Below, in pieces: positions 23,789 to 37,588 of a stretch of DNA of 64,000 nt. Source of the DNA: an uncultured Bryobacterales bacterium (GTDB taxonomy: Bacteria; Acidobacteriota; Terriglobia; Bryobacterales; UBA6623); NCBI GenBank assembly GCA_951813065.1, contig CATOTH010000006.1, positions 310,001-374,000 on the forward strand. Reading direction: 5' to 3'. The notes under the pieces are model-generated. The model was not told the origin of the DNA and ran no database searches. It was given only the letters and a program-made list of their open reading frames with translations. Made by a program: the position numbers and the translations under genes. The first letter of the stretch is position 1. Every line of letters begins with the position of its first letter.

Positions 23789-23917
23789 TAGTAAGCCGCC
23801 CATTTATTCTATCTCTAGTTCGGGCGACTGTCGGTAGTTTACCGACATCTGAGGACCTTGTCAACTCTCTGCCTTAAACCGGGTGCGCGACATTTCTGTG
23901 AATACGGCGCTACGCTT

Positions 23918-26160
23918 CCAGGGCTATTTTATTGTCCGTGGTTGAGGCGGCGCACAGCCGTGGGTGAGGGGCTGAGCGGGCTTTCCTGCTAGACGCTGCG
24001 ATTCTCGGTTCCTCGCAGTCCGGTCCGCAGGGGCTGGACATTTTGTTGTCGATCTGTCACTCTGGGTCCGATGGGGCCGTTGCCGACCCAGCGCCGCGCT
24101 GTGGACGTGCGCACCGTCACCGTGCGCCCGACCTTCGGCGCCCAGGAACACCGGCACTGGGACCGGCTGGTCGCGGCCCATCACTACCTGGGGTTTGGGG
24201 GCCTGTTCGGCAAGGGCTTGCGGCATGTGGCGACGCGGGGCTCGACGTGGGTCGCGCTGGTGGGCTGGCAGGCGGCCGCGCTCAAGCTCACGGCCCGTGA
24301 CCGCTGGATCGGCTGGACCCTGGAGCAGCAGTTGCAGCGCCTGCATCTGGTGGCCCAGAACTCCCGCTTTGTGATCCTGCCGGACTACCAGGGGGTGCCC
24401 AATCTGGCCTCGCGGGTGCTGGGGCTGAGCCTGCGGCGGCTGAGCGGCGACATGCAACGCGAGCACGGATTTCCGATCCTGCTGGCGGAGTCATTCGTGG
24501 ACCGGGCACTCTTCGCTGGGACCTGCTATCGGGCGGCGAACTGGCGTTCGCTGGGGTTCACCGGCGGCTACGCACGCCAGCCGGCTGCGGTGCCGGAGTG
24601 GCGCCATCACGGCCAACCCAAGGAGGTGCTTGTGTACGAATTGGAAGCGCATGCGAGGGCGGCCCTGGGCCAGCCCGAGGAGGATCCGGCCTGGCAGGGC
24701 CCGGCGCGGACCGCGCCGCCGTCCGCGCCGCAGTTGCGCAGCATGTTCGAGTGCCTGGGCGAGGTGCCGGACTACCGTTGCGCGCGGGGCCAGCGTTACC
24801 GCCTGCGCACGGTGCTGGTGCTGGCCATGGCGGCGCGGCTGGCCGGCTACCGCGGGGTGACCGCGTTCGCCCAGTTCGCGGCCCTGCTGGACCCGGCGCA
24901 GCGCCAGGCGGTGGGCTGTTTCTACAGTCCCAGCCGGCAGCGCTACACGACCCCGTCGATCACCACGTTCCACAACATCCTGGCCACCCTGCCGCCGGAG
25001 ACGCTGGAGCAGGCGGTGGCGGCTTGGACCTGGCAGCAGAACGGGCAAGTCCCGCCGGATGAGGAGGATAGCAGCTCGCAGGAGGCGGCCGGGCGGGTCC
25101 CCGGGGAGGACGCCCGGCCCACGGTCCTGACGGGTATCGCGATGGACGGGAAGGATGTCCGCGGGGCCTCGAAGCAGACGCCGGACGGCCGCCGCATGCT
25201 GGTCGCGGCCGTGGAGCACTCCCCCACGCGGGTGCTGGGACAGGTCGCGGTCGCCTCCAAGACCAACGAGATCCCGGCGGTGCGCGAACTGGCCGCGGGG
25301 TTGGACCTGGCCGGATGCGCCGTCACCCTCGACGCGCTGCACGCGCAGCAGGAGACGGCGCGCAGCCTGCTCGAGGACTGCGCTGCCGACTACCTGATCA
25401 CCAGCATCAAGGACAACCAGCCAACGATCCTGGACGACCTCCAGCACATGCTGTTCCCGGACGCTCCCGACCACGAGACCCTCGACAAGGAGCACGGCCG
25501 CATCGAGCGCCGCCGCTACTGGGTGAAGGATCTCAGCGACCCGGACTGGGACGGCTATGCCGACCTGTACGGCCGCCAGCAGGCCATCCGCATCGAGCGC
25601 GAGCGGCATGTGGTCAAGACCGGAGAGACCAGCACCGCAGTGAGCTACGCGCTGACCTCGCTGACGGCGGAGCAGGCCACGCCCGCGCAGCTGGCGGCGC
25701 TGATCCGCAACCACTGGCACATCGAGAACCGCCTGCACTACGTGCGGGACTTCACCTACGACGAGGACCGCTGCCGGGTGTGGGTGCGCGACCTGCCACG
25801 CAATCTGGCCTGCCTGACCAACGCGGCGATCTCGATCATCCGCTGCCAGCCCGAGTTCCGCTGGGTGCCGGAGGCCAACCGCCATTACGCGGGCCGTCCG
25901 CAGGAGGCGCTGGACCTGCTGCTGGCCCCGCCCCGGAGCTAGCCTGGCCGGCGCGCTGGCCAGCGCGCCGTGTTCCGCCGGACCCGGCGGAGCCGTACCG
26001 CTGTGTCCGCGCTTGCGATCCAGCCGTCGCAGCCGCCCGAGGCGCCTGCCCGGGCCTCTCGTGGCTGGCCCTCGGGGCCGTGTCCAGCGACTGCACAGGA
26101 CGTGGAAGCAGGCATCAACCTCTCTGAAACCGCCTCAACAGGACAAAAAAATGTGCCTGG
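23918..26160 (+). mobile_element. ISAs1-like element (2243 bp) nested in the ISKra4-like element
   Basis: The ends CCAGGGC...TTTATTGTCC...TTGAGGCGG (from 23918) and the mirrored CCGCCTCAACAGGAC...GTGCCTGG (to 26160) are imperfect inverted repeats. The 8-mer CTACGCTT flanks both sides (23910-23917 and 26161-26168). This shows that the element jumped into the left end of the older ISKra4-like element. It is longer than usual for ISAs1 (about 1.2-1.3 kb) because its transposase gene has an extra N-terminal domain. Confidence 0.88.
24071..25942 (+). CDS. ISAs1-family transposase with N-terminal DruA/DUF4338 domain
   Basis: The product has 623 residues. Residues about 10-180 match the DUF4338 (DruA-like) domain: 'HHYLGFGGLFGKGLRHVATR', 'WRSLGFTGGYAR'. 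Residues about 215-620 are a complete ISAs1 transposase: 'VPDYRCARGQRYRLRTVLVL', 'GIAMDGKDVRGA', 'VTLDALHAQ', 'DYLITSIKDNQP' and 'RNHWHIENRLHYVRDFTYDE'. These include the DDE acidic residues. DruA is otherwise known as a Druantia defence component. Fusion to a transposase suggests the domain can serve transposition, perhaps in DNA binding or target selection. The frame is intact. Confidence 0.88.
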   Translation: MGPLPTQRRAVDVRTVTVRPTFGAQEHRHWDRLVAAHHYLGFGGLFGKGLRHVATRGSTWVALVGWQAAALKLTARDRWIGWTLEQQLQRLHLVAQNSRFVILPDYQGVPNLASRVLGLSLRRLSGDMQREHGFPILLAESFVDRALFAGTCYRAANWRSLGFTGGYARQPAAVPEWRHHGQPKEVLVYELEAHARAALGQPEEDPAWQGPARTAPPSAPQLRSMFECLGEVPDYRCARGQRYRLRTVLVLAMAARLAGYRGVTAFAQFAALLDPAQRQAVGCFYSPSRQRYTTPSITTFHNILATLPPETLEQAVAAWTWQQNGQVPPDEEDSSSQEAAGRVPGEDARPTVLTGIAMDGKDVRGASKQTPDGRRMLVAAVEHSPTRVLGQVAVASKTNEIPAVRELAAGLDLAGCAVTLDALHAQQETARSLLEDCAADYLITSIKDNQPTILDDLQHMLFPDAPDHETLDKEHGRIERRRYWVKDLSDPDWDGYADLYGRQQAIRIERERHVVKTGETSTAVSYALTSLTAEQATPAQLAALIRNHWHIENRLHYVRDFTYDEDRCRVWVRDLPRNLACLTNAAISIIRCQPEFRWVPEANRHYAGRPQEALDLLLAPPRS

Positions 26161-26185
26161 CTACGCTTCTGAGCGGGCCTGCCAT

Positions 26186-26212
26186 GTCTGAGTGTCTTTG
26201 ATACACTCAGAC
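26186..26212 (+). promoter_or_regulatory. Perfect 10-bp inverted repeat directly before the ISKra4 ribosome-binding site
   Basis: GTCTGAGTGT (26186-26195) and ACACTCAGAC (26203-26212) pair perfectly around CTTTGAT. AAAGGAG and the ATG at 26225 follow at once. In an RNA that enters from outside, this hairpin would sit next to the ribosome-binding site and could limit transposase expression; it could also be a repressor site. Confidence 0.6.
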
Positions 26213-26224
26213 AAAGGAGCGCCT

Positions 26225-27941
26225 ATGTCCGAACCCCTGCCCAACCTCGAATCGCGCCGTTCCCAGATCCTGCTCGAAATCGCCCACCTCGGCGACTTCC
26301 GGCGCGGTTCGGTGCATGCCACCTTCCGCCGCTGCGGCAAGCCCAACTGCGCCTGCGCCAGCGACGACCATCCCGGCCACGGTCCCCAGGTCCGCCTCTC
26401 CTTCAAGCGCCACGGCAAGACCGTCCAGCAGACGCTCTCCGACCCCGCCCAGATCCGCAAGGCCGAGCGCGAGGTGGCCGCCTTCCGCAGCTTCCAGCAG
26501 CTCAGCGCCGAACTGGTCGCGGTCAATGAGCGCATCTGCCAGCTGCGCCCGCCGGCGACCCACGATCTGGAGCCAGCCTCCGCAGCGCCGAAAAAAAACG
26601 CTACGCGCGATCCAGAACGCCGTCCAGGCCGAGGTCGCGAGCCTGCTGAGAGTGATCGTCAACGCCCGGCGCAAGCTCGGCGCGGTCGACCTCGAAGCCC
26701 TGGAACTGGCGACCCGCACAGCCCTGCACAGGGCCGGGGCACGGCTGCTGGAGGCGCTGCTGGAGGACACCGCCGACGAGCACCAGCCGCCGCTGTGCAC
26801 CTGTGGCAACCCCATGCGCTGCGAGGGGCCACGCCCCAAGCAATTGGTCAGCCTGCTCGGCACAGTGAGCCTGCGACGGCCCTACTATCACTGCCGGCAC
26901 TGCTGGCGGGGCGTGGCCCCGCTCGACCGTGACCTCGACATCGAGGGCACGCAGTACTCCCCGGGCGTGCGCCGTCTGCTCGCCGTGGTCGGCGGCGAAA
27001 CCGCGTTCGCGCGTGGTCGCGTGCTGCTGGCAGAGCTGACGGGCGTCGAGGTGACCGTCAAGGCGGTCGAGCGGCAGGCCCGCGCGATCGGCGCCGACGT
27101 GGCGGCGCGGGCTGAGTCGGACCGCCTCCAAGCGGCCCTGCGGGGCTTCCCGCCCCAGCCGGGCGAGCCCCTGGGCACGCTCTACATCGAAATGGACGGC
27201 ACCGGCATTCCGGTCACCGCCGCAACCTCCGCTGGCCGCCCCGGCAAAGACGGCGCCCCGGCGCGCACCCGCGAGGTCAAGCTGGGCTGTGTCTTCACGC
27301 AGACCGCTCTGGACGCCGCGGGCCGACCGGTCCGGGACGCGCGCTCGACCACCTACACGGGCGCGATCGAGAACGCCGAGGCCTTCGGGCGGCGCATCTA
27401 CCACGAGGCCTGGCGGCGCGGCCTGCACCGCGCCGAGCGCCACGTCGTGATCGGGGACGGCGCGGCATGGATCTGGAATGTGAGCCACAGCTACTTCCCC
27501 GACGCCATCGAGATCGTCGACATTTACCACGCCCGCGAGCATCTGTGGGAGCTGAGCCGCCAGCTGTTCCCGCTGGACCGCAAGCAGCGCCGGCACTGGG
27601 TGCGCCGACGCCAGAAGCAGCTCGACGAGGGTCGCATCGAGCATTTGGTCCGCTCACTACGAGGCATCTAGGCCGAGACACCCGAACTGGCCGAGACGCT
27701 GCGGATCCAGGCCGCCTACTTCGAGGGGCATGCCGAGCGCATGCGCTACGCCGAGTTCCGCCGCCAAGGTCTCTTTGTCGGCTCGGGAGTGATTGAGGCG
27801 GGCTGCCGGACAGTGGGCGGCCGTCTGAAGCGCTCGGGGATGTTCTGGACCGTGGACGGAGCCAATGCGATCACTGCCCTCCGCTGCGCCCATCTCTCCA
27901 ACCGCTTCGACGACTACTGGGAAGACCGGGCCGCAGCGTAG
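26225..27941 (+). pseudogene. ISKra4-family transposase gene, frameshifted at an A8 run and broken by an amber codon
   Basis: The first frame (from ATG 26225) encodes a DUF6788-like start: 'RRGSVHATFRRCGKPNCACA'. At AAAAAAAA (26591-26598) coding moves by +1 (equivalently -2) into the frame carrying 'LCTCGNPMRCEGPRP', 'RRPYYHCRHCWRG', 'LYIEMDGTGIPV', 'VVIGDGAAWIWN' and 'IVDIYHAREHLWE', the ISKra4 transposase core. The A run may be a genuine slippage site. A TAG at 27669 then interrupts the frame ('RSLRGI-stop-AETPEL'), after which coding resumes to 27941 ('GLFVGSGVIEAGCRTVGGRL'). CAG to TAG is the simplest origin. With the nested element upstream as well, this copy is probably inactive. Confidence 0.75.
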
Positions 27942-37234: not shown

Positions 37235-37588
37235 TGGTGGAGGCGGCGGGAATCGAACCCGCGTCCGAAAAAGACCACCGAAAAGAGACTACATGCTTAG
37301 TCCATTCGTGAATCTCGACCGCAGACTGGGAATGAACAAGCCGACTGCGGTCCAGCTCGATTGATCTCGGCTCCTGAACTCCGAGCAGAAGTCCCGAGGC
37401 CTATCCCGCAAAATGACACCTATGACTTGCGTGCGAGCCCACCAGTCTAGGCGGCTGCCTAAAGCTTAGGCAGCGTGTGCAAACTGCATGTTGTTGGCAG
37501 TTCTTGTGTTCCGATCGTTTAACGGGTGCTCGGAGCCCGGCATGCCTCTTAGCAGCAATTACGATTTCGTCGAATCCTGTACGCCCCC
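37235..37588 (-). ncRNA. ssrA: Transfer-messenger RNA
   Basis: The minus strand from 37588 starts GGGGGCGTACAGGATTCGAC and ends with a T-arm (GGTTCGATTCCCGCC), CGCCTCC and an encoded ACCA at 37235. The 5' GGGGGCG pairs with the 3' CGCCTCC. The tag reading frame (37466-37498) starts at GCC and encodes ANNMQFAHAA followed by TAA. It is a one-piece tmRNA of 354 nt. The RNA rescues stalled ribosomes with SmpB. The tag ends AHAA, a slight variation on the common ALAA. Its 3' end is the presumed integration target of the adjacent island. Confidence 0.95.

Follow-up and report, generated by a model that had tools for sequence, protein, structure and literature searches.

An ISAs1-type insertion sequence whose transposase carries a DruA domain with predicted kinship to phage Mu Mom

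Why should a domain named after the phage-defence system Druantia form the N-terminal part of a transposase? The question is raised by an insertion sequence from an uncultured Bryobacterales bacterium (Acidobacteriota), located in a window of 64,000 nucleotides (by which we mean the whole stretch of DNA analysed, i.e., positions 310,001 to 374,000 of contig CATOTH010000006.1). The original prediction had taken this fusion to link phage defence to transposition and had suggested DNA recognition or strand handling as the role of the domain. The features of the locus, in window coordinates, are:

23909..23918, no strand: left target duplication GCTACGCTTC, 10 bp
23919..26159, + strand: insertion sequence of 2241 bp encoding the DruA-ISAs1 fusion, its limits set by comparison with a second copy and by the inverted ends and the target duplication
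23919..23950, no strand: left terminal inverted repeat CAGGGCTATTTTATTGTCCGTGGTTGAGGCGG, an imperfect match to the right end
24071..25942, + strand: fused transposase, 623 aa, stop-free ORF of 623 codons
24140..24571, + strand: DruA domain (PF14236) as matched by Pfam, residues 24-167, E 5.2e-23
24182..24184, + strand: codon of H38, aligned with the invariant Mom H48
24410..24412, + strand: codon of S114, whose counterpart in the Mom alignment is the serine changed in 8bv8 (S124A)
24749..25030, + strand: DDE_Tnp_1_assoc domain, residues 227-320, Pfam E 2.2e-14
25130..25777, + strand: DDE_Tnp_1 catalytic domain, residues 354-569, Pfam E 1.3e-11, with D359, D421 and E552
26130..26159, no strand: right terminal inverted repeat, reading CAGGCACATTTTTTTGTCCTGTTGAGGCGG on the opposite strand
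26160..26169, no strand: right target duplication GCTACGCTTC, 10 bp

The element opens with CAGGGCTATTTTATTGTCC and closes with GGACAAAAAAATGTGCCTG, its termini forming an imperfect inverted repeat of about 30 bp in which, when the left and right ends are compared, CAGGGCTATTTTATTGTCC pairs imperfectly with CAGGCACATTTTTTTGTCC. A second copy, 99% identical, lies at a different site (G000:C1:882735-884600) and has its own target duplication, GACATGGGCC, which bears out the claim that the element carrying the fusion is mobile. Because this copy contains the same fusion, an assembly join or a local frameshift is ruled out as the source of the latter, as it is by the relatives of the element. The clear ends announced at the outset are real, but the 8-bp duplication announced with them is only the inner part of the 10-bp GCTACGCTTC. 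Taken alone, the two copies of the window element fit an 8-bp reading with ends CCAGG...CCTGG too; the duplication is nevertheless best read as 10 bp, because related DruA-ISAs1 elements that occupy numerous insertion sites, both here and in a Verrucomicrobiae genome, Acidithiobacillus and others, show 10 bp. The neighbours of the element are a gene with an NYN domain and an ISKra4-like element.

Within the protein, the DruA domain (82 bits against a Pfam gathering cut-off of 27) is directly followed by the associated domain and then by the DDE domain, while the NCBIfam model for ISAs1 transposases is matched with an E-value of 6.4e-54 (183 bits, cut-off 70). DruA (DUF4338) and a complete ISAs1 DDE transposase do therefore share a single continuous protein of 623 residues, as had been proposed. 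Since the open frame runs on upstream, reaching 649 codons, the start codon is not certain. D359, D421 and E552 are unchanged in all 15 full-length fusions and likely constitute the DDE triad; a model of the full-length protein (pLDDT 83.6, pTM 0.60) does not fix the arrangement of the domains. Like the rest of the ISAs1 family, the element combines DDE_Tnp_1_assoc and DDE_Tnp_1 domains scoring over the NCBIfam cut-off with CAGG...CCTG ends and a single long ORF, and it has terminal inverted repeats (imperfect, about 30 bp) and a target duplication (10 bp), as members of the family do. It departs from the family by an additional N-terminal domain of about 200 aa (for 623 aa in total), and the fusions reach a far lower NCBIfam family score (about 160-183 bits) than ISAs1 transposases devoid of DruA (>400 bits). 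The best explanation of the window element is an insertion sequence from a DruA-bearing subgroup of ISAs1, active or recently active.

The genome to which the window belongs contains 32 DruA domains, in insertion sequences of the ISAs1, Tn5 and IS66 types, and each of its full-length ISAs1 transposases bears one. Its mobile families, delimited by comparing copies, and its other DruA lineages are:

Family A: 2416 bp, DruA with a Tn5-type transposase (Tnp_DNA_bind + DDE_Tnp_1), 790 aa, 8-bp duplications; five full near-identical copies, one at 92% and fragments
Family B: 2150 bp, the second of the DruA-ISAs1 fusions, with a protein of 614 aa; nine copies, eight of them complete and flanked by 10-bp duplications, one truncated
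Family C: the window element, two copies
Family D: 3518 bp, IS66 transposase with a separate 307-aa DruA gene immediately after it; three full copies with 8-bp duplications
Family E, L064 element: additional fusions of DruA to Tn5-type transposases
L066: third DruA-ISAs1 lineage

The length of the duplication thus goes with the family of the transposase (ISAs1-type: 10 bp; IS66-type and Tn5-type: 8 bp). Copies of the 2416-bp Tn5-type element (L042:4019-6434, L041, L044, L045, L047 and L049, with 8-bp duplications) favour GC-rich targets, with GGTGCGGG/CCCGCACC at four of the six sites that are duplicated in full and GC at the centre of the other clear ones. No common sequence emerged when the insertion sites of DruA-ISAs1 elements were compared, so that target preference is not a general property of DruA, and the domain was rejected as a target-site selector. 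One Tn5-type copy is split by about 11 kb (G000:C10:300977-302759 and 313830-314467), with GGCGCGCC at both outer ends. In an IS66-type element (L050:2495-6012), TnpC and the DruA gene are the only genes, and no ORF for TnpA or TnpB was seen, from which DruA may substitute for an accessory protein.

Beyond this genome, DruA is present in 19 of 199 genomes of the phylum Acidobacteriota, and it is fused to, or directly beside, a transposase at 14 of the 20 loci examined, these neighbourhood statistics covering a single phylum. The transposases at the 14 loci are of the IS66, ISAs1, Tn5, other DDE_Tnp_1, DUF772 and DUF4277 types. Among the six remaining loci, three (L101-L103) match the PADLOC DruA strongly, one (L108) combines an incomplete DruA with a stretch resembling DruE, and two are unassigned. 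Scanning GTDB genomes with the ISAs1-type domain returned at least 552 relatives, of which 80 were kept, a selection that favours ISAs1-type matches and is not a random sample. These 80 spread over about ten phyla (Acidobacteriota, Pseudomonadota, Verrucomicrobiota, Thermodesulfobacteriota, Bacillota, Nitrospirota, Planctomycetota, Chlorobiota, Myxococcota and Eisenbacteria, plus one archaeal MAG), and nearly all have DruA ahead of an ISAs1 transposase. Altogether, the partners of what we call here IS-type DruA are ISAs1, Tn5-type, IS66, DUF772, DUF4277 and other DDE_Tnp_1 transposases; the search for DUF4338-DDE fusions and their ends, proposed from the start, hence yielded several transposase families and a wider association than first supposed. 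In plasmid records, the DDE half of the window protein has 788 matches and the DruA half only two. ISAs1 transposases without DruA being so common, the domain must be an accessory that ISAs1 chemistry does not require, and the objection foreseen for the fusion, that similar elements might do without DUF4338, applies in part. No close IS-type DruA was found in the phage records searched.

The coupling of DruA to the transposase can also take another form. In at least ten taxa, the DDE frame opens, in -1, before the frame encoding DruA and the associated domain has ended, and the stretch shared by the two includes an invariant CAA AAA AAG, which contains the slippery heptamer A_AAA_AAG, the first ORF stopping 8-65 bases beyond. 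This invariant slippery site, CAAAAAAAG, lies in the ORF overlap of L171, L173, L177, L180, L181, L182, L187, L190, L193, L194 and L196-L201. The sequences concerned come from many taxa and form a single clade (SH-aLRT support of 100%) in a tree where the positions of long rows are unsure, and the A7G run is scarce in the surrounding DNA (21 in 200 kb, both strands). The simplest reading of these sequences is that DruA and the associated domain are joined to the DDE domain at this run, either by programmed -1 frameshifting or by slippage of the transcript, in which case the clade would make both the shorter protein and the full fusion. This apparent frameshift sets the clade apart from the ISAs1 family at large. 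A second type of split was observed in L145, L147, L148, L149, L150 and L165. Here the overlap is +1 and falls on a TTCCCCC(C) run further downstream, towards the last third of the transposase, which in some cases TGA follows immediately; this run may serve +1 frameshifting or be a hot spot for mutation.

What, then, is the IS-type DruA domain? The structure prediction suggested for the N-terminal domain gave an AlphaFold model (residues 1-217, pLDDT 94.3), in which a GNAT fold spans residues 10-202 or so. Its best PDB match according to Foldseek is the phage Mu protein Mom (8bv8, E 1.5e-6), which VIA-align also ranks first (Z 15.3, rmsd 3.8 over 174 residues; next entry at 13.2). Weak matches to the Mom family of Pfam (PF25680) had prompted a test of this relation on a diverse set of 61 IS-type domains: 33 of them are recognised by the Mom model at E<=0.1 (the best reaching 2.9e-8), and no classical acetyltransferase family is matched by any. 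In a comparison of profiles, hhalign aligns the IS-type DruA profile with that of the Mom family over 170 columns (probability 95.9, E 5.5e-9), at an identity to Mom of 17-18%. The window domain itself has no match to PF25680 at E<=0.1 and lies under the Pfam reporting level, so that the link to Mom rests on family and structure.

Residue conservation points in the same direction. H38, R99, E140, G150, G162 and K184 are unchanged in the 61 IS-type domains, and Y153, A155 and N157 are near-invariant; besides the serine discussed next, several positions that never vary in Mom are thus kept. The structure 8bv8 is that of an inactive Mom mutant (S124A), and the serine changed in it, which is serine 114 after aligning the Mu protein, pairs with S114 of the window protein, a position occupied by serine in 60 domains and by threonine in the last one. 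As in Mom, N-x-x-S stands in place of the usual acetyl-CoA loop: the Q/R-x-x-G-x-G/A pyrophosphate loop occurs, in loose form, in 3/61 domains, the window protein not being among them. From these models and alignments, the view that IS-type DruA is a divergent GNAT and a homologue of Mom is well supported. The two have in common the fold, pocket residues including an essential serine, the lack of the usual acetyl-CoA loop and, in the case of Mu, carriage by an element that transposes DNA. They differ in that IS-type DruA is joined to, or encoded beside, the transposases of small insertion sequences, has other flanking conserved residues (W82, E140, K184) and is a putative enzyme. Mom modifies the DNA of Mu and shields it from restriction (PMC6483171); the PDB calls it a methylcarbamoylase. 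DUF4338 has been called a GNAT domain and found fused to the defence protein DndF, in a passage that states neither a transposon association nor a link to Mom (PMC10853773). Likewise, in the papers we searched, we found no report of the Mom relation, of the association with insertion sequences or of any link between DUF4338 and transposases, and those found assign no biochemical role to DruA/DUF4338.

We thus read the window protein, with a probability of about one half, as a transposase equipped with a Mom-type, probably catalytic, DNA-modifying module and carried by an active or recently active insertion sequence. The C-terminal DDE transposase would perform cut-and-join chemistry at the CAGG...CCTG ends and produce the 10-bp target duplication, while the N-terminal Mom-like GNAT would probably modify bases (adenine in Mu) in, or close to, the stretch of DNA bound by the transposase, whether this is the element ends, the target or an intermediate of transposition. 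What the element likely gains is protection of its moving copy against restriction or repair nucleases of the host; alternatively, the new copy might be marked in a way that controls further transposition. Catalysis, DNA as the substrate, the group transferred and this benefit are what we infer. That the domain serves the element is argued by its conserved pocket, its repeated association with different transposases and the purifying selection acting on it in the family (NG86 dN/dS of 0.15-0.40, close to the transposase half). Several points count against such a module: D144 (D139 in Mom) is kept in 49 of the 61 domains and in none of the four Tn5-type ones, Y153 is replaced by leucine in two of these four, GNAT folds do many jobs, and most ISAs1 elements do without DruA. 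Moreover, transposases are made in small amounts, which makes a bulk protection of DNA as in Mu unlikely.

A domain retaining the GNAT fold without catalysis, and serving the transposase in DNA recognition or architecture (binding of ends or target, synapsis), is doubtful, yet it is the strongest of the alternatives. Many DDE transposases carry N-terminal DNA-binding domains, and DruA does stand at the N-terminus, directly ahead of the associated and DDE domains; the -1 frameshift clade, by analogy with the OrfA regulators of IS3, could yield a DruA protein with the associated domain and without DDE. Against this, the pocket, including the serine essential in Mom, is conserved across insertion sequence families with unrelated ends, DruA is a separate protein in the IS66-type elements, and both the ends and the duplication length (10 versus 8 bp) track the transposase family rather than DruA. 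The nearest characterised relative being Mom, modification of bases offers a better lead than strand handling, and the role first suggested for the domain is not supported as it was put.

GNATs mostly acylate proteins or small molecules, so that DruA might owe its fold to an activity of this kind, for example in an auto-acylating transposase or one hitting a host factor. This appears improbable, because the closest relative in both structure and sequence is Mom, and not a protein or amine acetyltransferase, and because nearly all members lack the usual acetyl-CoA loop.

At face value, the Pfam name and the existence in the phylum of Druantia-type DruA, at loci with NurA and HerA, might suggest a passenger defence gene carried for the benefit of the host, but this is very improbable for a one-gene element of 2.2 kb without partner genes (neither the helicase druE nor the others), whose DruA matches no PADLOC model and whose fusion in a single polypeptide, along with the frameshift coupling, indicates a role in transposition. 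IS-type and Druantia DruA (PADLOC DruA1) do belong to the same Pfam family (PF14236), both over its cut-off; nevertheless, PADLOC recognises no defence protein in the 623-aa sequence, the tree sets Druantia-type proteins apart in a clade of their own with a very long branch, and the two are different throughout. In an alignment of three sequences, Druantia DruA lacks the Mom-like H38, R99, E140 and S114, and a search with the Druantia type gave no Mom match even at E 10. The label "Druantia domain" is therefore misleading for IS-type DruA, and the fused domain is not the version that serves defence in Druantia. Two loci (L101:4914-9052 and L103:4721-9197) have a Druantia-type DruA beside HerA-type ATPases, with a NurA-domain protein in the former, and likely represent a defence unit other than classical Druantia.

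A broader claim, which we put forward tentatively and with the odds slightly against it, is that a widespread class of bacterial transposons, spanning several unrelated transposase families, marks the DNA it moves with a Mom-type base-modifying enzyme of its own, fused to the transposase or expressed along with it. Phage Mu transposes and carries Mom; if the claim were true, very small elements would, like Mu, count DNA modification among their tools for transposition. Druantia DruA would then be a divergent relative of the same module. The Mom-like domain and its conserved candidate serine raise a direct question, namely whether DNA is modified. In practice, Pfam DruA matches are often parts of transposons (14 of 20 loci in the phylum) and should not be scored as Druantia defence.

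Finally, two observations concern the rest of the window. The ISKra4-like element lies directly to the right of the DruA-ISAs1 element (26192-27941), and its DUF6788 ORF overlaps the next ORF around an A8 run near 26592-26599, a possible frameshift site. A tmRNA gene is found at 37235-37588, with the tag ANNMQFAHAA.
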